Assembly (NCBI RefSeq): GCF_022348185.1
Contig: NZ_JAKRFD010000008.1
Coordinates: 62,001-126,000, forward strand
Reading direction: 5' to 3'
From: Epibacterium sp. Ofav1-8
GTDB taxonomy: Bacteria > Pseudomonadota > Alphaproteobacteria > Rhodobacterales > Rhodobacteraceae
Length of the DNA: 64,000 nt
Every line of letters begins with the position of its first letter. Positions within the stretch are counted from its first letter, which is position 1. The notes beneath the pieces are model-generated. The model did no database searches, was not told where the DNA came from, and worked only from the letters and a program-made list of their open reading frames with translations. Positions 3,967-19,600 of the stretch are shown one piece after another. Both the position numbers and the translations under genes were made by a program.

Positions 3967-4005
3967 TTGACAGCGACGCGCATTGATTGACATCATGACG
4001 TCATG
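3967..4005 (+). promoter_or_regulatory. candidate promoter and palindromic operator of the RHH-CHAD-ParA-CYTH operon
   Basis: A consensus -35 TTGACA (3967-3972) is followed after 18 bases by CATCAT (3991-3996), a fair -10. The perfect 12-bp palindrome CATGACGTCATG (3994-4005) overlaps the -10 and ends 17 bases before the ATG of the ribbon-helix-helix gene. Ribbon-helix-helix proteins usually bind short palindromes and repress their own promoters, so this is the natural operator candidate. Confidence 0.5.
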
Positions 4006-4022: not shown

Positions 4023-4202
4023 ATGTCCAAAGACAAGACAAGCAGCAGCAAGCCCTACAAATCCGCGCGCAAGAACACCTCGTTGCGTTTGGACAGCAAG
4101 ACACTGAAAGCGCTGAAAATCCGGGCCATTGAAGAGGATACCAGCATTCAGCGCCTTATAGAGCGGCTTATCGAGGACTACCTGAGACCGACAAAGAGAT
4201 AA
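4023..4202 (+). CDS. small ribbon-helix-helix (CopG/Arc-like) DNA-binding protein
   Basis: This is a 59-residue basic protein. Residues 1-22 are a flexible Lys/Ser-rich tail, followed by NTSLRLDSKTLKALKIRA, which fits the beta strand and first helix of a ribbon-helix-helix fold, then IEEDTSIQRLIERLIEDYL as the second helix. An upstream in-frame GTG exists, but the ATG at 4023 fits the family better. It lies five bases upstream of the CHAD gene and is evidently its first cistron. Ribbon-helix-helix proteins with a basic tail also serve as the centromere-binding partner of small ParA ATPases (ParG-like); a ParA gene lies two genes downstream. It could be only an autoregulator; the sequence cannot separate the two. 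Confidence 0.75.
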   Translation: MSKDKTSSSKPYKSARKNTSLRLDSKTLKALKIRAIEEDTSIQRLIERLIEDYLRPTKR

Positions 4203-4207
4203 GGCGC

Positions 4208-5737
4208 ATGACATCATCTGAACCAATCGGGTTTCTACTGGACGGCCAGATTGACTGGTCGCAGATCGAAGCTGCCCTGGCCCCCCTGCGCCTGGTGACG
4301 GAGCCTGACGACGGGACCGTGCCCTTTCGCCTGCTGGATTGCCACGACCAGCTTTTGCGCGGATCCGGGCGAGTGTTGCTGGAGTTTGACGCTGCGCTTG
4401 CGCTGTTTGCCGGGAAGGAGGCACCGTTGCGCCAGGCGGCGGCCTCGGACGGTGATTTCCCGGCGGATCTGCCAGACGGGCCAATCCGCAGCCTGACGCA
4501 AGACCTGTTCCCGCTGCGCTGCTTTCTGACCCTGGCCCGTGGTGTGCTGCGGTCCACCACCCTGCGAGTGGTGGATGAGGAAACCAAGACCCAGTTGCGC
4601 GGCGAGGTTCTGCAGGTCGAGGGCGAGGCCGGCGGTGCCGTCACCCTTGTCCTGCTGAAACCGCTGCGCGGTTACGACCGCGCCCCGGCGGCGATGGCGG
4701 CCGGCCTGCGGGAGCAGGGCGCCGGGCCGGTGGATGCGGAACGGGTCTTTGCGGCGCTGGCGCCGGAGGTGCAGCCCTATGTGGCCAAGCCCAAAACCAC
4801 CTTTACCGGGCAGGAAACCGCCTTTGACGTGGCGGTGGAAACGATGTCCAACTACATCGCGGTCGCCCGCGCGAACGAGGCCGGTGTGATCGCCGATCTC
4901 GACACCGAATTCCTGCATGACTATCGCGTGGCGCTGCGCAAACTCCGCTCGGTGCTGAGCCTGTTCAAGGGCGTGTTTGGTGCGGTGCAGACGGCAGAGT
5001 TGAAAGCCGCCTTGTCCGACCTGATGCAGCCCACCGGGCGGGTGCGCGATCTCGACGTCTACCTGATGGAGCGGGCGGACTACGACGCCCGGGTGCCCGA
5101 ACATCTGCGTCCCGGCCTGTCGGTGATGTTCGATGCCTTTGCCGCAGAGCGCGCCGATGCGCAGGCGGCACTGGCAAACCATCTGAACAGCAAGGCCTAT
5201 CACACGGTGATTTCGGAGCTGGAGGCGCAGTTTGCCCATCCCGAGGGCTTCATCCGCGGCGCCGCAAGCGGGGTTAGCGCAGATCGATATGCCCGCAAGC
5301 TGATCTGGAAACGCTACCGCAAGATCTGCAAGATCGCCGCGCGTATCCATGACGACACGCCCGACGAGGAGGTCCATGAACTGCGCATCGCCTGCAAGAA
5401 ATTCCGCTATCTGGTGGAGTTCTTTGCCCCGCTGTTTGCCGGCAAGAGCGCCAAGCGCATCATCAAGCGGATGAAGCTGTTGCAGGACAATCTCGGCGCG
5501 TTCAACGATTATGCCGTTCAGCAGCAGGCGCTGCTGCGCTTTGTCGAGACCCACCCGGCGATGACCGGGCGTCGGGGTGTCGAAGCGGCGCTGAGCATCG
5601 GCGCGCTGATCGCCCTGCTGGATCAAGGCCAACGGGCGGAACGGGCACGGGTGATGGAGAGTTTCGACCGGTTCAACAGCCCTGAGGCCCGCGCCGAGAT
5701 CAAGGCGCTGTGTCATCCCGAGGAGGCCGCCGCATGA
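4208..5737 (+). CDS. CHAD domain protein with degenerate CYTH-like N-terminus
   Basis: This 509-residue protein ends in a CHAD (conserved histidine alpha-helical domain) from about residue 210. The conserved histidine helices read HDYRVALRKLR (His about 237) and HELRIACKKFRY (His about 390). CHAD proteins bind polyphosphate and have been found on polyphosphate granules. The first 190 residues resemble the CYTH half of CYTH-CHAD fusions in layout, but they lack the ExExK catalytic motif. An AAGG ribosome binding site lies just upstream of the ATG, five bases after the RHH stop. The stop overlaps the ParA start as ATGA, so the two are coupled. I infer an intracellular, polyphosphate-related scaffold; no enzymatic activity is visible. 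Confidence 0.85.
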   Translation: MTSSEPIGFLLDGQIDWSQIEAALAPLRLVTEPDDGTVPFRLLDCHDQLLRGSGRVLLEFDAALALFAGKEAPLRQAAASDGDFPADLPDGPIRSLTQDLFPLRCFLTLARGVLRSTTLRVVDEETKTQLRGEVLQVEGEAGGAVTLVLLKPLRGYDRAPAAMAAGLREQGAGPVDAERVFAALAPEVQPYVAKPKTTFTGQETAFDVAVETMSNYIAVARANEAGVIADLDTEFLHDYRVALRKLRSVLSLFKGVFGAVQTAELKAALSDLMQPTGRVRDLDVYLMERADYDARVPEHLRPGLSVMFDAFAAERADAQAALANHLNSKAYHTVISELEAQFAHPEGFIRGAASGVSADRYARKLIWKRYRKICKIAARIHDDTPDEEVHELRIACKKFRYLVEFFAPLFAGKSAKRIIKRMKLLQDNLGAFNDYAVQQQALLRFVETHPAMTGRRGVEAALSIGALIALLDQGQRAERARVMESFDRFNSPEARAEIKALCHPEEAAA

Positions 5738-6477
5738 AGGTTCTTGCCTGCTACAGCAACAAGGGCGGCGTCGGCAAGACCGCGACCGCGGTGAACCTGG
5801 CCTACGCCTTTGCGCAATCCGGCGCGCGCACCTTGTTGTGCGATCTCGACCCGCAGGGGGCGTCGAGCTTCTATTTCCGGGTCAAACCGTCGAAAAAGCT
5901 GAAGGGCGCGCAGTTCTTTCAGGATGTGGAGCGCTTTACCCGCGCCATCCGCGGCAGCGATTATGAGAACCTCGACATTCTGCCGGCCAATCTGACCTTT
6001 CGCGATTTCGACCTGTTTCTGGCGCGCATGAAGAACAGCCGGTCGCGCCTGAAAAAGGCGCTGAAGGGCGTGCACAGCGATTATGATGTCATCATTCTCG
6101 ATTGCCCGCCCAATATCTCCATGCTGTCGGAGGCGGTGTTCAAGGCGGCGGACAAGGTGGTCGTGCCGGTGATCCCGACCACGCTGTCGGAACGCAGCTT
6201 TGTGCAGCTTCTGGATGTGTTCCGGGCGGACGGGGTGAAGATGACAAAGCTGCTGCCCTTCTTTTCCATGGTGCAGGGACGCAAGGCTATGCATGGCGAG
6301 ACGATCACCCGCCTGCGCGCCCGTCATGGCAAGCGGTTCCTGTCGACGGAGCTGCCGTTTTCTACCGATGTGGAGAAAATGGGCCTGCACCGCAAACCGG
6401 CCTTGTGCTTTGCGGCCACCCGCCCGGCGGGCAAGGCCTACTGGGCGCTGTTTGATGAGGTCAAAGCCCGTCTCTGA
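5734..6477 (+). CDS. ParA/MinD-family ATPase
   Basis: This is a 247-residue ATPase. CYSNKGGVGKTATAVNLA is the deviant Walker A with the signature first lysine, and CDLDPQG and VIILDCPPN are the A'/B motifs. It has no N-terminal helix-turn-helix, so it is of the short type used by plasmid type Ib partition, McdA and related cargo positioners rather than a chromosome-type ParA. Start is fixed by the ATGA overlap with the CHAD gene. No ParB gene is next to it; the only candidate partners in the operon are the RHH protein and the CHAD protein. The genes around it suggest the cargo is a polyphosphate body rather than DNA (inference). Confidence 0.85.
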   Translation: MKVLACYSNKGGVGKTATAVNLAYAFAQSGARTLLCDLDPQGASSFYFRVKPSKKLKGAQFFQDVERFTRAIRGSDYENLDILPANLTFRDFDLFLARMKNSRSRLKKALKGVHSDYDVIILDCPPNISMLSEAVFKAADKVVVPVIPTTLSERSFVQLLDVFRADGVKMTKLLPFFSMVQGRKAMHGETITRLRARHGKRFLSTELPFSTDVEKMGLHRKPALCFAATRPAGKAYWALFDEVKARL

Positions 6478-6523
6478 GGCGGAACGCAGGGGGCACAGGG
6501 GTGATGCAAGCAAGGACATTGGC

Positions 6524-6997
6524 ATGAAAGAGATCGAGCGGAAATTCCTGGTGGCGGATCAGCCGGACCTGACTGCGGCGCAGGCCACGCCCGTGCGGCA
6601 GGGGTATCTGACCGCGTTGGAGGACAGCACCGAGCTGCGCCTGCGCCAGAAGGGAGAGCGTTTCTATCTGACCCAGAAAGGCGGGTCCGGGCGGGTCCGC
6701 GAAGAACGGGAGGCGGAAATCAGCCCGGCAGTGTTCGAGACCTTCTGGCCGGGCACAATGGGGCGGCGGGTGGAGAAGACCCGTTGGACCGGGGCGTTGC
6801 CCGATGGCCCGGGTTATGAACTCGACATCTTCGAAGGGGCGCTGGCCCCCTTGCAGATGGTCGAGGTGGAGTTTCCGGACGAGGCGGCGGCAGAGGCCTT
6901 TGTGCCGCCGTCCTGGTTCGGGCGCGAGGTGACCGAGGACAAGCGGTTCGGCAATAAATCCCTCGCGGTGCACGGAATGCCGTCAGACCCGGAGTGA
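6524..6997 (+). CDS. CYTH domain protein (triphosphate-tunnel hydrolase type)
   Basis: This 157-residue protein begins MKEIERKFLV, which contains the CYTH metal-binding ExExK signature (E3, E5, K7). TELRLRQKGERFYLTQKGG and DIFEGALAPLQMVEVEF follow the strand order of the triphosphate tunnel. The family includes inorganic triphosphatases and thiamine triphosphatase, which hydrolyse short polyphosphates. The frame is open far upstream inside parA, but the ATG at 6524 gives the conserved start. It lies 46 bases after parA in the same direction. Standing alone beside a CHAD protein with a dead CYTH half, it looks like the separated catalytic partner. The exact substrate is unknown. Confidence 0.85.
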   Translation: MKEIERKFLVADQPDLTAAQATPVRQGYLTALEDSTELRLRQKGERFYLTQKGGSGRVREEREAEISPAVFETFWPGTMGRRVEKTRWTGALPDGPGYELDIFEGALAPLQMVEVEFPDEAAAEAFVPPSWFGREVTEDKRFGNKSLAVHGMPSDPE

Positions 6998-7996: not shown

Positions 7997-8733
7997 GGCG
8001 TGCCGCTTTCCGGTTCCAACTGCGCCAGCGGTCCATAGAGGATCAGCACCGGCGCCGGTGAGGTGATCGCCTCCAGCAGATCGGGCAGACCGTCAACGGT
8101 GACCCGGTGCAGCTCTTGCGCGGGCGTCGAGACCCCAAGCGCCACCAGCGCAGGCGTGTCCTGCGGCAGGCCGGCCTCTAGCAGCAGGGACAGCAGCGCC
8201 GCAAAGGTGCGCTTGCCCATATAGACCACGGTGGTTGCCTCGGGGTCGGCAAGGGCTGCAAGGTTCATGTGATCGGGCAGGCCGCCGGTCACGTCATGGC
8301 CGGTGATGAACTGCAACCGGCGCGCGGTCAGCCGCCGGGTCAGCGGAATTCCCGCCGCAGCGGCGGCGGCAGAAGCTGCGGTGACGCCGGGGATGATCTC
8401 GTATTTGATGCCAGCGGCGCGCAGCGCAATGATCTCTTCCTCAAGGCGGCCAAAGACGCCGGAATCCCCGGATTTCAGCCGCACCACATGGGCCCCGGAT
8501 TGGGCATAATCCACCAGAAGCTGGCTCACGTGGTCCTGCTTGGGCGAGGGGCGGCCTGCGCGTTTGCCCACGCCCACCAGATCCGCATCCTCGCGCGCGT
8601 GCGACAGGATCGGGCCCGAGGACAGGTCGTCAAACAACACCGCATCCGCCGCCTCAAGACGTTTGACGGCCTTGACCGTCAGCAGGTCCGGATCCCCCGG
8701 CCCGGAGGAGACAAAGCTGACAAATCCGCTCAT
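7993..8733 (-). CDS. cobA: uroporphyrinogen-III C-methyltransferase
   Basis: This 246-residue SUMT-type enzyme makes precorrin-2 from uroporphyrinogen III by methylating C-2 and C-7. SSGPGDPDLLTVKA is the N-terminal SAM loop and LVGVGKRAGRPS is diagnostic of SUMT. The second loop reads KSGDSGVFGRLEEE where most SUMTs have KGGDPFVFGRGGEE, so it belongs to a divergent CobA subtype often encoded in cob clusters beside a separate sirohaem enzyme. It overlaps cobB and cobF by ATGA at each end. Confidence 0.9.
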   Translation of the reverse strand: MSGFVSFVSSGPGDPDLLTVKAVKRLEAADAVLFDDLSSGPILSHAREDADLVGVGKRAGRPSPKQDHVSQLLVDYAQSGAHVVRLKSGDSGVFGRLEEEIIALRAAGIKYEIIPGVTAASAAAAAAGIPLTRRLTARRLQFITGHDVTGGLPDHMNLAALADPEATTVVYMGKRTFAALLSLLLEAGLPQDTPALVALGVSTPAQELHRVTVDGLPDLLEAITSPAPVLILYGPLAQLEPESGTP

Positions 8734-10175: not shown

Positions 10176-10970
10176 TCAATCATCCCCTTCGCTCCATTCC
10201 GACCACGGGCTGTCGGCACTTTGCGGACGATAGCGGCGGTCATAATCCGCACCATACAGGCAGCTTTCGGCGAAATCCTCTGCGCCCAGGGCGTGGCCCA
10301 CGAGGATCAGCGCGGTGCGTCCGCGCGCGCCCTCGGTCGCCTCGATAATGGACCCAAGCGTTGCCTTGACGATCTTCTGATCCGGCCAACTGGCGCGCCA
10401 GACGATGGCCACCGGACACTCCGCGCCATAGGCGGGCGTGAGCCGTGCCACCACATCGTCCAGCACATGCACCGACAGATGGATCGCAAGCGTTGCGCCG
10501 GTGGCGGCGAAATTCTCCAGCGTCTCGCCTTCGGGCATCGCCGAGGCGCGCCCCGACGTGCGCGTGAGCACCAGCGATTGTGCCACGCCGGGCAGCGTGA
10601 GTTCAGTCCCCAGCGCCGCCGCACCAGCCGCAAAGGCAGGTACACCGGGGGTGATGTCATAGGGAATATTCAGATCGCGCAGGCGGCGCAGCTGTTCGCC
10701 CATGGCGGACCAGACCGACAGATCCCCGGAGTGAAGCCGCGCAATATCCTGTCCGGCGGCGTGGGCACTGGCGATCTCTGCCATGATTTCATCCAGCGAC
10801 AGCGGCGCGGTGTTGATGATTTTGGCCCCCTCTGGGCAATGGCTGAGCAGCGCTTCGGGCACCAGAGAGCCAGCATAAAGGCACACCGGACAGGCCGCGA
10901 TCAGGTCGCGCCCGCGCAGGGTAATCAGGTCGGCGGCACCCGGTCCGGCACCAATGAAATGAACGGTCAT
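10176..10970 (-). CDS. cobM: precorrin-4 C11-methyltransferase
   Basis: This 264-residue tetrapyrrole methylase converts precorrin-4 to precorrin-5. [20 protein letters not shown] is the conserved N-terminus, with the [12 protein letters not shown] run typical of CobM/CbiF and the [15 protein letters not shown] loop near residue 85. The longer open frame starts within cobE; I placed the start at 10970 because its ATG overlaps the cobE stop as ATGA. A 27-base gap separates its end from repeat copy A. Confidence 0.92.
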
Positions 10971-11329
10971 CTCTCTATCATCTCCGCAAGCGCCACGGTG
11001 GCAAGCCCGTCCGTGGTCACACATCGTCTCTGGATCAGCCGCGCGCCTGCGCCCGCTGCCACAAGGGCGCAGGCTTCGGCCACCGATCCGGTGTTGAACC
11101 GCGCATGGATACGCGGCGAAAGGGTGGGGGTCGGGACCCCGGCGATCTGGTCCTCATCAAGGGTCTCGACCGTGAGGTTTTGTGCCAGCACAAAGGCGCG
11201 AAACACGGGGCTATCGGCCTTGGCACGCAGGGTCACCACCCGATCCGGGCGCGTTTGCAGCGCAGTGTAAGCCTCCGCAAGGCTTGCCTCGCTGGCGCGG
11301 TTGGAAAAGCCAAAGCCTGCGATCATCAT
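10967..11329 (-). CDS. cobE: cobalamin biosynthesis protein CobE
   Basis: This 120-residue protein matches the stand-alone CobE/CbiG C-terminal domain: [17 protein letters not shown] at the start and a [15 protein letters not shown] segment in the middle. Its biochemical role is not fully settled; CbiG relatives open the ring lactone in the anaerobic route. It is tightly coupled on both sides: its ATG overlaps the cobL stop and its stop overlaps the cobM start. The second Met codon directly follows the first, so the start could be three bases later. Confidence 0.85.
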
Positions 11330-12534
11330 CGGGTAACGCTCCACTGGATCACGGGGCGGGCACGTTCCCAACCGCGCATGGTGCCCAAGGGGCCAGCTTC
11401 GGCGATTTCCGCCTTGAGCAAATGCCCACCATGGGTGGCATGAGCCTGCATCAGCAAGATCTCAGTCTCCAGCGTTACACCATTGGCAACAAGGCGCGTG
11501 CTTGCGGGCAGGATCTGCCAGAGGTGGTCAATGAGGGCCTGCGACCCTCCGCCGCCGATAAACACGCAATCGGGCGAGGAATGGCCCTCCAATACTTCCG
11601 GCGCGCGGCCCTCAAGGGCTGTCAGGCGATGCGCCAGACCGAAGTCTTTGGCGTTGCGGCGAATATTCTCCAGCCGATCGGCGCGGGCCTCAAATGTGGT
11701 TGCCGTGGCCCCTCGGGCCGCAAGGCACCACTCCACCGAGACAGATCCCGATCCGCCGCCAATATCCCACAGATGTTCGCCCACGCGCGGGGCAAGGGCC
11801 GAGAGCGTCAGCGCTCGGATGGGGCGTTTGGTGATCTGCCCGTCACTGGCAAAGAGTGTATCCTCAAGGCCGGATGCCTGCGGCAGGCCCGAGCCTGATG
11901 CCGTGAGTGCCGCCACGACGGGGGCGTCAATGTCGGTAAGGTCAAACCCTTGGGCGGTGGTCGTGCGGATGCGCTCCCGTGGTCCGCCAAGGCGCTCCAG
12001 CACGGTGATCGCGCTGGTGCCAAAGCCGATCTCGCAAAGATAGGCAGCCAGTTCCGCCGCCGCCGTGCCATCGCGCAGGGTGCAGATCACTTGGGTGCCA
12101 CGGCCCAAAATCGGGCGCAGGCGCGCATGGGGCGCGGCATGCAGACCCAGGCAGAGCGTGTCCTCCAGCTTCCACCCTAGCGCATTGGCGGCCAGCGCAA
12201 AGCAGGAGGGCGCCGGATGGGACGTCCACTCGCAGCGGTCCAGATCGCGCAGCAGGCTGCCGCCTGCGCCGTGCCAGAAGGGATCGCCCGACGCCAGAAC
12301 CACCGTCGCGCGCCCGCGTGCGGCCAGCACCGGCGCGGTGGAAAACGGTACGGGCCAGACCTGCCCGCGTACGCCTGCATCGACCAGTTCCAGATGACGC
12401 GGCCCGCCGATGATGATTTCTGCGGCCCGAAGGGCTGCACGGCTTGCATCCGACAGCCCTTCGGGGCCATTTTCCCCGAGCCCGATCAGGGTCAGCCATG
12501 GGCGTGCTCCGCCCTTTGTCAGAGGATCAGACAT
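11326..12534 (-). CDS. cobL: precorrin-6Y C5,15-methyltransferase (decarboxylating)
   Basis: This 402-residue bifunctional enzyme methylates C-5 and C-15 and decarboxylates the ring-C acetate. The N-terminal half is CbiE-like (WLTLIGLGENGPEGL, then VLASGDPFWHGAGG), and the C-terminal half is CbiT-like with the SAM motif WDIGGGSGSVSVEW near residue 240. Its ATG (12532-12534) overlaps the ATG of cobK on the other strand by two bases. An AGGAG motif lies inside cobK upstream of this start, so its promoter or the read-through transcript must cross cobK. Confidence 0.93.
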   Translation of the reverse strand: MSDPLTKGGARPWLTLIGLGENGPEGLSDASRAALRAAEIIIGGPRHLELVDAGVRGQVWPVPFSTAPVLAARGRATVVLASGDPFWHGAGGSLLRDLDRCEWTSHPAPSCFALAANALGWKLEDTLCLGLHAAPHARLRPILGRGTQVICTLRDGTAAAELAAYLCEIGFGTSAITVLERLGGPRERIRTTTAQGFDLTDIDAPVVAALTASGSGLPQASGLEDTLFASDGQITKRPIRALTLSALAPRVGEHLWDIGGGSGSVSVEWCLAARGATATTFEARADRLENIRRNAKDFGLAHRLTALEGRAPEVLEGHSSPDCVFIGGGGSQALIDHLWQILPASTRLVANGVTLETEILLMQAHATHGGHLLKAEIAEAGPLGTMRGWERARPVIQWSVTR

Positions 12535-16619: not shown

Positions 16620-19600
16620 GCTGCGCCCTCAAGCGTGGCAAGGATCGAATTGCGCCGCGTCACCCACAGCCCTGCATCGCGCAGAGCGTTGAACCGATCC
16701 CGCATGGCCTGAAGGGCAGCGGGGTTTTCGCGCTCCAGAAATGCCACCAGATCGTCGCGGCCCAGTGTGGCCTCGAAATAAAGGTCAAAGAGATGCGTAG
16801 GCACCACCTGGGCCAGATGCGCAAAGGCCGCCATGTGATCCAGCGTTGCCGCAATCTCTGCCGCGCCGCGAAAGCCGTGGTTCATCATTGAGGTCGCCCA
16901 ATGCGGGTCAGAGGCACGGGCGCGGGTGACCCGGGCGATTTCCTCCTGCAGGCTGCGCGCCTGCGGGCGGTCCAGACGGGTGGCGTCCATGTGATAGAGC
17001 GCCGGGGCCTCGGCGCCCAGACGCTTCATCGCGGCGGCAAAGCCTGCTTCATGGGCGGCATAGTCCGAGGCGACCAGAACATCCGTTTCCGCCAGATCTT
17101 GCAGATGTACAAAGCTGTCTGCGCTGTGCAGTCGATCCTCAAGCGCGGCGCGCGCCTCGTGGATGTCCCCTTTTGCGTCAATCGCATGCGATGAGGCCGC
17201 AAGCCAAGCCTCGCCCGCTGCCGCGCGGGCCTCATCGGAGTAGTCATCAAGATGCTGGGTCATCCCAAGGCCGTATAGCCCGGGCTTGGGGCCAAAGACG
17301 CGCGGCGTGGTCTTGAGGTAGGGGTTGTCACTTGGGTCTTCTTCGCGGGCGCTCAACGCGGCGGCGGCGGCTTCGAACATTTGGGCAAGGCCGGGAAACA
17401 CGTCGCGAAACAGGCCGGACACCCGAAGCGTCACGTCGATGCGCGGACGGCCCAGAAGGGCCAGCGGGATGATTTCAAAGCCCGAAACACGCTCGGATCC
17501 TGCGTCCCATTGCGGGGCAAGACCCGCAAGATGCAGCGCCATGGCGAATTCCTCGCCCGCCGTGCGCATGGTGGCAGAGCCCCAGAGATCCACCACCAAC
17601 CCGCGCGGCCAGTCGCCATGGTCCTGCAGGTGGCGGCGCAGCAGCTCTTCTGCCAGCTTGACCCCTTGCGCCTGCGCCGCCCGCGACGGTACCGCGCGGG
17701 GATCCGTGGTAAAGAGGTTGCGCCCCGTGGGCATCACATCCGAGCGCCCCCGGTAGGGCGACCCGGACGGGCCGGGGGAGACCAGCTTGCCCGCCAGCGC
17801 ATCCAGCACCCCGCGCAACTCTGCCGCGCCGTGATCGCCCTCGCCAAAGATATGCAGACCTTCGCCGTATTGGCTTTCCTTGATGTCGCAGACAAAACGG
17901 TCGATGCGGGTGATCGCCTCTGCCGCCGAGGCGTCGGCGGGGATGCCCAAGTCTTCTTCGACGCCGGTGCCCTGCGCCTCGGCCCGGATGTCGGCGATCA
18001 GCCGGTCACGGCGCGCGGGATCCAACCCGTCGGCTGTGGAATATTCATCCAGGAGGCTTTCAAGCCGCGTCATCCCGTCGAGCAGCGTGGTCTGTGCCAA
18101 AGGCGGCGGCATGTGGCCCAGAGTGATGGCACCGATGCGGCGTTTGGCCTGCGCGGCCTCGCCCGGATCATTGACGATAAACGGATAGATTACCGGCAGA
18201 TCACCCGCCAGCACCTCGGGCCAGCACTGCGCCGAGAGTGCCACCGCTTTGCCCGGCAGCCACTCCAGCGTGCCATGGGCACCCACATGCACCAGCGCAT
18301 CTGCTTGCGTCCGGAGCCAGAGATAGAAGGCGACATAGCCATGGCGCGGCGTGCGGTCGAGGTCGTGATACTCGTCATCGCGGGATTGCACGTCACCGCG
18401 TTCGGGTTGCAGCGCGATCAGTGCCTTGCCCGCGCGTAGCGCGCGAAAGTGCACGAGGCCGTCCCTGATCGCGGGGTCCTGCTCGGGCGCGCCCCAAGCC
18501 GCGGTGAGATCCTTGCGCAAGCGGGCGGGCAGGCGGTCGAGCGCTGCGAGATAGTCCGAGAGCGGCCATGTCAGCGTCTCATCCGAGAGGCGCGCGCCAA
18601 GGTCTGCCTCGGCCGTGACGTCATAGCCCTCGGTCGCAAGGGCGCGCAAAATCTCGGACGTTGAGGCCAGCGCGTCCAGCCCCACCGCGTGAGCGAGGTT
18701 GTAATCGCGCCCCGGATAGGTCGAGAGCACCAGCGCGAGGCGTTTGTCGGCAGGCGCTTGACGGGCGAGCCGCAGATGCGCCTCGATGCGATCCAACGCC
18801 GCCGCTACTCGTTCCGGATCGGTGCGATGGGTGAAACGGGAATATTCCAGATCGGGGTCGCGCTTGGTGGGGGATTTGAAGCTGACAACACCGGCAAACA
18901 GCCGACCGTCCACCTCTGGCAGGACCACATGCATGGCCAGATCCGCAGGCGACAGGCCGCGATCCGCCAGATCCCAATCCTTGCGCCGGGCGGTGGACAG
19001 CGCCACCTGAAACACCGGACAGCCCGTGAGGCTCAGCGGGGAGGCGCTGCCATCGCGCCCCTGCGCGGAAAAGGCGGTGGCGTTGATGAGCGCGGCGGGG
19101 TTCAGGGCGGGCAGTTCCGCGCGCAGCCAGTCGACCGCGTCGGGGACCTTGAGGCTCGGCGCGAAAACCCCATAGGCGGCATACCCGCGCGCGCGCAGGC
19201 TGTGGATCATCGCATCTACAGGGGCGGTGTCGGCAGACGTCAGATAGGAGCGATAGAAACTGACCAGCACCAGGGGTTTGTCGATCTCGGGCAGCGCATC
19301 CAGCGCGCCCCGGTCGGGGTCGTAGAACCCGAAATCCGGCACGGTTTTCTTGCCGATCACCGGGCTGGCATAAAGGCCAGAGGCCAACGCCAGCTGCGCC
19401 AGCGCCGCCTGCGCCGCGACAGCACCGCCCGCATCGCACAGCGCCTGAAGGCGGCGCAGGGTGGAAACCGGCAGGGTGGACAGCTCATCAAGGCGCGGAT
19501 CTTCCTGACCGTCGGCGGGCAGGATCGCCAGCGCGATGCCCTTGCGCCAGGCGAGATCCTGAAGCGTGGCCAGACCGTAGGACCAGTAGCTCTCACCACC

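Follow-up and report, generated by a model that had tools for sequence, protein, structure and literature searches.

In the 64,000-nucleotide stretch of Epibacterium sp. Ofav1-8 DNA analysed here (the window), the gene of a CHAD protein and that of a short ParA-type ATPase form a real, conserved module. The module lies within a four-gene cassette, between a small ribbon-helix-helix (RHH) gene and a stand-alone CYTH gene (Table 1). It is probably dedicated to polyphosphate. The best mechanism we can offer is that it would position polyphosphate granules, a proposal that we consider evenly balanced between right and wrong. All four genes are on the plus strand, with a gap of 5 bp between RHH and CHAD, an ATGA overlap between CHAD and ParA, and a gap of 46 bp between ParA and CYTH. 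The overlap and the small gaps suggest a single transcript. The genes, domains and spacing given by a first-pass annotation of the window were confirmed by the coordinates and by Pfam, which matched all four proteins (among them CHAD at 3e-62, residues 215-442; the ParA-type family AAA_31 at 4e-39; and RHH_1 at 20.5 bits against a cut-off of 20.5, a borderline match). The four-gene arrangement is more than chance, because it recurs in distant bacteria.

Table 1. Features of the cassette and its upstream region (window coordinates).
Feature	Position	Strand	Evidence and remarks
Promoter-like site TTGACA-18-CATCAT	3967..3996	+	1 found vs 0.5 expected by chance, weak alone
Candidate RHH operator, adjacent 8-bp boxes TGACATCA TGACGTCA	3988..4003	+	Comparative upstream counts
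RHH protein, 59 aa, lysine-rich N-terminal tail	4023..4202	+	Pfam RHH_1; 10-row alignment; probable autorepressor
CHAD protein, 509 aa	4208..5737	+	Apparently degenerate triphosphate-tunnel domain (about 1-190) and CHAD domain (about 205-500)
ParA-type ATPase, 247 aa	5734..6477	+	Walker A motif of the deviant type, signature lysine present (K10, K15)
Stand-alone CYTH / triphosphate tunnel enzyme, 157 aa	6524..6997	+	Pfam CYTH 1e-6; motif intact

When a single genome of each species was scanned, 34 loci were obtained, and 30 were counted after L042-L045 (21-31% identity) had been dropped. The loci come from Rhodobacterales, Gammaproteobacteria and Thermodesulfobacteriota, with one more bin that is labelled Myxococcota. 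Conservation of the neighbourhood outside close relatives, on which the first-pass annotation made its idea depend, was found for the CHAD-ParA pair: CHAD lay directly before ParA in 26/30 loci across phyla (in L017 as a fragment at a contig end), the others being L028, L032, L034 and L037. In most loci the two genes were joined by a stop-start overlap or separated by tiny gaps, while the other neighbours varied. The exact four-gene order proposed for the survey was kept less often. CYTH followed in 15 of the 30 loci (a fragment in one more), RHH preceded in nine (with a degenerate copy in L018), and the complete RHH-CHAD-ParA-CYTH order was present in nine, from Rhodobacterales and Gammaproteobacteria, in addition to Paracoccus plasmids. 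Among the open reading frames of at least 40 aa in L012-L041, no other one reached even E 10 with the RHH profile, L017 being cut by the contig end. Six Paracoccus plasmid records matched at 63-68% identity; the whole cassette was present in all five that were opened, with RHH as a small unnamed gene. Within the window's own family, Rhodobacteraceae, the ParA was found at E 1e-60 or better in 23/394 genomes, and CHAD preceded it in 21 of the 22 loci read. ParA and CHAD distances were correlated (r = 0.91, 25 loci), as expected of a unit inherited together.

The CHAD protein ties this unit to polyphosphate. Its AlphaFold model (mean pLDDT 92) gave Chlorobium tepidum CHAD structures as the top fold matches, among them 6qva, which was solved with bound polyphosphate (TM 0.94 by target, 34% identity); the sixth match was full-length YgiF. 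CHAD relatives are known on polyphosphate granules, and Lorenzo-Orts and colleagues mutated the polyphosphate-contact residues H253, R256, R260, R296, R418 and Y419 (PMC6537752). By alignment, with the numbering offset deduced, these correspond to H237, R240, R244, R280, R400 and Y401 here, and all six are invariant in 26/26 CHAD rows. The N-terminal half of the protein had no Pfam CYTH match. Its fold resembled, weakly, ThTPase 3bhd (E 3.5e-4), Med18 and class IV cyclases, all of which we take to be tunnel-type folds. The ExExK motif was absent from the first 40 residues in all 26 aligned rows and present near the start in 11/11 aligned stand-alone CYTHs. The model and the alignment agree with the earlier claim of a dead tunnel half in the CHAD protein and an active separate enzyme: the former looks like a catalytically dead triphosphate-tunnel-like fold, and the latter looks active. 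Residues E3, E5, K7, R39, R41, K52, R59, E61, E63, K85, R87, D101, E114 and E116 are invariant in the stand-alone CYTH, and among proteins of solved structure it is nearest to Nitrosomonas europaea NE1496 (2fbl and 3typ; E 1e-51), which we take to be a tripolyphosphatase.

The neighbouring genes point in the same direction. PPK1 was found near 7/30 loci (L028, L029, L030, L031, L032, L035 and L038), all Pfam-confirmed, L028 and L038 coming from the same metagenome bin. In L028 (7724-10753) and L032 (757-3644), PPK1 is followed directly by ParA with no CHAD between, and the L028 bin also holds the CHAD-ParA locus L038. In Desulfuromusa kysingii (L035), PPK1, PPX, a histidine phosphatase, PPK2, CHAD, ParA and CYTH lie within about 9 kb. 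In Methylotuvimicrobium (L040), genes for a histidine phosphatase, PstS, PstA and PstB are divergent from CHAD-ParA, and L039 and L041 share gene clusters of this neighbourhood; PstB matches in the ParA flank scans were ordinary ABC ATPases and were excluded from the counts. A PHO4-family phosphate permease is present at L016 and, by similarity, at L028, and phoB lies upstream in one Paracoccus plasmid. A NUDIX gene follows the cassette in 4/5 of the opened Paracoccus plasmids, for example after CYTH at L145:10253-10651 (Pfam). A protein at L016:11241-11645 resembles that NUDIX by eye, without a Pfam match. With PPK1 in 7/30 loci, PPX, PPK2 and Pst neighbours and the CHAD contact residues kept, the tie to polyphosphate drawn in the first-pass annotation stands. 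The host genome (99.99% complete) contains two PPK2 and two CHAD genes and no detected PPK1 match; in such a host, the polymer would be made by PPK2.

The ParA starts directly at its P-loop, as expected of a short ParA without an N-terminal helix-turn-helix. The motif KGGxGKT, the deviant Walker A with the signature lysine of ParA/MinD ATPases, is present in 30/30 ParA rows (L038, whose ParA is split in two frames, was excluded from the alignment). The nearest solved sequences are 8ray ParA, 4pfs and Soj (1e-24 to 1e-26 for Soj), with ParF (3e-13) and McdA (6noo, E 1e-11) more distant. We propose that CHAD would bind polyphosphate through the conserved residues, as its relatives do, and thereby mark the granule. 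ParA would be its dedicated ATPase, the ATP-bound dimer binding a cellular matrix, most likely the nucleoid. CHAD or another granule component would stimulate hydrolysis and release ParA, and this cycle would space the granules or partition them between daughter cells. CHAD is the obvious candidate for the cargo adaptor that stimulates the ATPase. The separate CYTH would trim short polyphosphate, judging from its relatives, and the RHH protein would repress the operon by binding 8-bp boxes arranged in tandem across the promoter, as the comparative DNA evidence suggests. A fuller version, in which a horizontally spread machine positions and also partitions granules through a CHAD adaptor whose tunnel half has turned into a docking domain, falls in our judgement a little short of an even chance.

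Several observations weigh against granule positioning. Localisation of CHAD and ParA on granules is here a prediction, and no adaptor motif was identified in the module. One relative (G009) keeps CHAD and CYTH with only remnants of ParA and RHH, so the remainder may work without ParA. Among 398 sampled genomes of the phylum, searched with a ParA profile at E 1e-40, CHAD stood beside a wider-family ParA in only 7/54 genomes with flanks read (70 matched). The canonical DNA contacts are also missing: the nonspecific DNA-contact residues R221, R224 and K241 of Caulobacter crescentus ParA (PMC7229837) are F209, D212 and T229 here in the 8ray alignment. A Soj-like ParA of the same genome (L002) retains PRNVR. 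In the CHAD-linked ParAs, a family-specific loop, E214-x-M216-G217-x-x-R220, is found instead (E, M and G in 34/34 rows, R in 33/34). Such DNA-contact residues are described as often poorly conserved, and MipZ as holding DNA differently (PMC7229837). Since the loop replaces the usual DNA-contact arginines, the ParA may travel on the nucleoid by a novel mode of contact or depend on a different matrix. As far as the alignment goes, it would either hold DNA differently, in the manner of MipZ, use another matrix, or act as a switch.

If it is a switch, ParA would control polyphosphate enzymes (the CHAD complex, PPK and CYTH) in an ATP-dependent manner and move nothing. The PPK1-ParA pairs without CHAD, the absent DNA contacts and the conserved loop all fit this explanation, whereas the nearest solved relatives move DNA or cargo (Soj and 8ray ParA, with McdA further off). 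Some other ParA/MinD proteins are regulators, which tempers the argument from relatives, and we regard a switch as rather unlikely. The neighbourhood might also be a co-regulated phosphate-stress island in which ParA has an unrelated job. We find this improbable: many wider-family ParAs do not adjoin CHAD and the cassette is patchy in the genus (4/13 genomes), but the CHAD-ParA pair, with its overlap or tiny gaps, persists across phyla while other neighbours change. The Paracoccus plasmids, which carry the whole cassette, raised plasmid partition as an explanation, with RHH and ParA as a plasmid-derived pair for DNA partition that travels along with polyphosphate genes. It was judged very unlikely, since RHH is absent in most relatives, the site consists of only two to three boxes at the RHH promoter, and a 12-mer of it (ATCATGACGTCA) occurs once in the whole genome. 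Both plasmids searched also have another, RepA-like partition match elsewhere, although this match falls below the curated cut-off and is broken into two pieces. Positioning of granules by CHAD-ParA remains the mechanism that we prefer.

The RHH protein is better explained as a regulator than as part of the ATPase machinery. The window sequence upstream of it is TGACATCATGACGTCA. The second hexamer of the promoter-like site overlaps the operator boxes, and a TTG at the same distance was seen by eye in many of 21 aligned upstream regions. The box TGACGTCA was picked after viewing the first 13 upstream regions, and a held-out set was read later. In the first loci, the exact box was present in 13/13 RHH-positive loci (at most 80 bp from the RHH start) vs 2/23 RHH-negative CHAD-ParA loci (within 250 bp), these two being L018, with a degenerate RHH directly behind the box, and L140. 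In the held-out loci, it was present in 8/8 RHH-positive members, three of which are Paracoccus plasmids that closely resemble two members of the first set, vs 0/12 RHH-negative members, or 0/10 without L161 and L165, which repeat L025 and L026. L158, which repeats L018, had been set aside from the latter group, and L166 (cut by the end of its contig) and L177 (lacking CHAD) were also left out. Overall, the exact box precedes RHH in 21/21 RHH-positive loci. The box at -8 from it matches at 5.8/8 positions on average (21 loci), vs 0.4 to 3.9 for the other nine offsets listed, and otherwise the window and 11 of the loci are only 50-62% alike over the 120 bp upstream. The promoter carries only two to three 8-bp boxes, this search covering non-degenerate repeats. 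A second copy of TGACGTCA occurs in the window at 18616-18623, and two copies are within chance.

In the simplest reading of these sequences, dimers of RHH would sit on neighbouring 8-bp boxes and switch the operon off, which would make the protein the probable autorepressor of the cassette. The boxes would be a ready expression control for the module. MetJ, the methionine repressor, is likewise an RHH protein that uses adjacent 8-bp palindromic boxes. Its box is AGACGTCT, unlike the TGACGTCA found here, and MetJ had no match in the Pfam list. No sequence relative of the RHH protein was found in the PDB, and its AlphaFold monomer model was poor (pLDDT 72, no strand). The first-pass annotation had treated the RHH protein as a ParG-type partner of ParA, and this part of its model is probably wrong, given that RHH is missing from most CHAD-ParA loci, that the ParA is nearer Soj than ParF, and that the boxes at the RHH promoter are operator-like. 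An essential role as ParA partner was rejected as the main explanation on the neighbourhood counts and the operator test. The RHH protein could also touch ParA via its lysine-rich tail.

Each of the known systems shares something with the module. In McdAB carboxysome positioning, the gene of a ParA-type ATPase also adjoins that of a cargo-bound protein, and the nucleoid-gradient model would be the same; here polyphosphate would be carried, a CHAD protein instead of McdB is encoded next to the ATPase, and McdA is distant in sequence. ParF-ParG plasmid partition likewise combines a short ParA with a small RHH protein encoded nearby, but here the ParA is nearer Soj, the RHH is dispensable and promoter-repressor-like, and the CHAD gene separates the two. 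AlgP of Pseudomonas aeruginosa spaces polyphosphate granules, probably via nucleoid tethering (PMC13052382; PMC9239181). Unlike the present module, it is a single histone H1-like protein without ATPase or CHAD-ParA pair. In the Streptomyces ppk-pptA-nudix operon, a CHAD phosin accompanies polyphosphate genes and a NUDIX hydrolase, which resembles the NUDIX after the Paracoccus cassettes; the sections describing that operon do not mention ParA (PMC8003754).

The first-pass annotation knew of no description of this exact gene set, which is close to correct. ParA, CHAD and PPK1 were printed together for Acidithiobacillus in 2019 and 2024, as a folD-ppk-parA-CHAD neighbourhood (PMC10892726; PMC6416229). 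The relevant parts of these papers interpret it as cAMP signalling or copper resistance, with no granule role for ParA; our comparison is by gene order. No proposal of ParA-driven polyphosphate positioning was found in the literature, most subscription journals and all preprints being outside the search. According to a section of a 2025 review, AlgP is the only known granule-placing factor, and whether energy is spent remains to be seen (PMC13052382). It is thus still an open question by what means polyphosphate granules are placed in bacterial cells and distributed among them, and to this question the module offers a named, deletable ATPase beside a granule-binding protein. Because the genomes with the module include those of laboratory organisms such as Methylotuvimicrobium buryatense, the question is directly testable. 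If the proposal is true, no ATP-driven system for positioning polyphosphate would precede this one, which in some lineages would bring along an RHH repressor of its own.

The cassette sits between genes for kynureninase and cobF, which are directly adjacent in genomes G004, G008 and G010. The same site in G009 (locus L151, 2158-4846) holds full-length CHAD and CYTH and only fragments resembling RHH and ParA. The empty sites and this remnant indicate that gain or loss affects the module as a whole and that ParA can go first. The closest public match to the ParA, at 82%, was in Tritonibacter scottomollicae, which would make Tritonibacter or a close relative the probable host.

In the phylum sample, 70 genomes had the ParA and 202 had CHAD; G946, a partial match, was not included. 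CHAD was present in 58/70 genomes with ParA vs 144/328 without (Fisher p = 1e-9, uncorrected for relatedness). A link between CHAD and the whole ParA family was tested in this sample and not found. Wider-family ParAs that have no CHAD neighbour are repeatedly found next to truA, cysM or unrelated genes (e.g. L100:2522-5454), and several of the 23 tree rows on a well supported branch adjoin truA or cysM. On the quick ParA tree, in which 38/87 inner branches were open and the outgroup was not kept together, CHAD adjacency required 7 changes vs 28 in shuffles. It is therefore clustered but not single. CHAD-adjacent ParA rows in the crown clade numbered 27/32, and a few deeper branches had them too. 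The claim of a CHAD-ParA unit is limited to the crown clade and does not extend to all such ParAs. On the Marinobacter nauticus VT8 plasmid pMAQU02 (L148:1673-6747), a ParA 37.5% identical to that of the window lies near phbB, and wider-family ParAs might serve polyhydroxybutyrate granules.

Genes of the GAK system were found adjoining or near the CHAD-ParA cassette at L021:11551-17626 and L141:3381-6968, and by clustering also at L016 and L017. They encode an ATP-grasp protein (TIGR04356) and an HprK-related kinase B (TIGR04355), with an amphi-Trp protein and a PhoU-like/phosphotransferase protein also present at L021. This unexplained system may be tied to phosphate or polyphosphate. In Malonomonas rubra (L033), a lysine-rich small open reading frame (8118-8330) precedes CHAD and a helix-hairpin-helix protein (10944-11423) follows ParA. 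Both small proteins are possible extra nucleoid binders.

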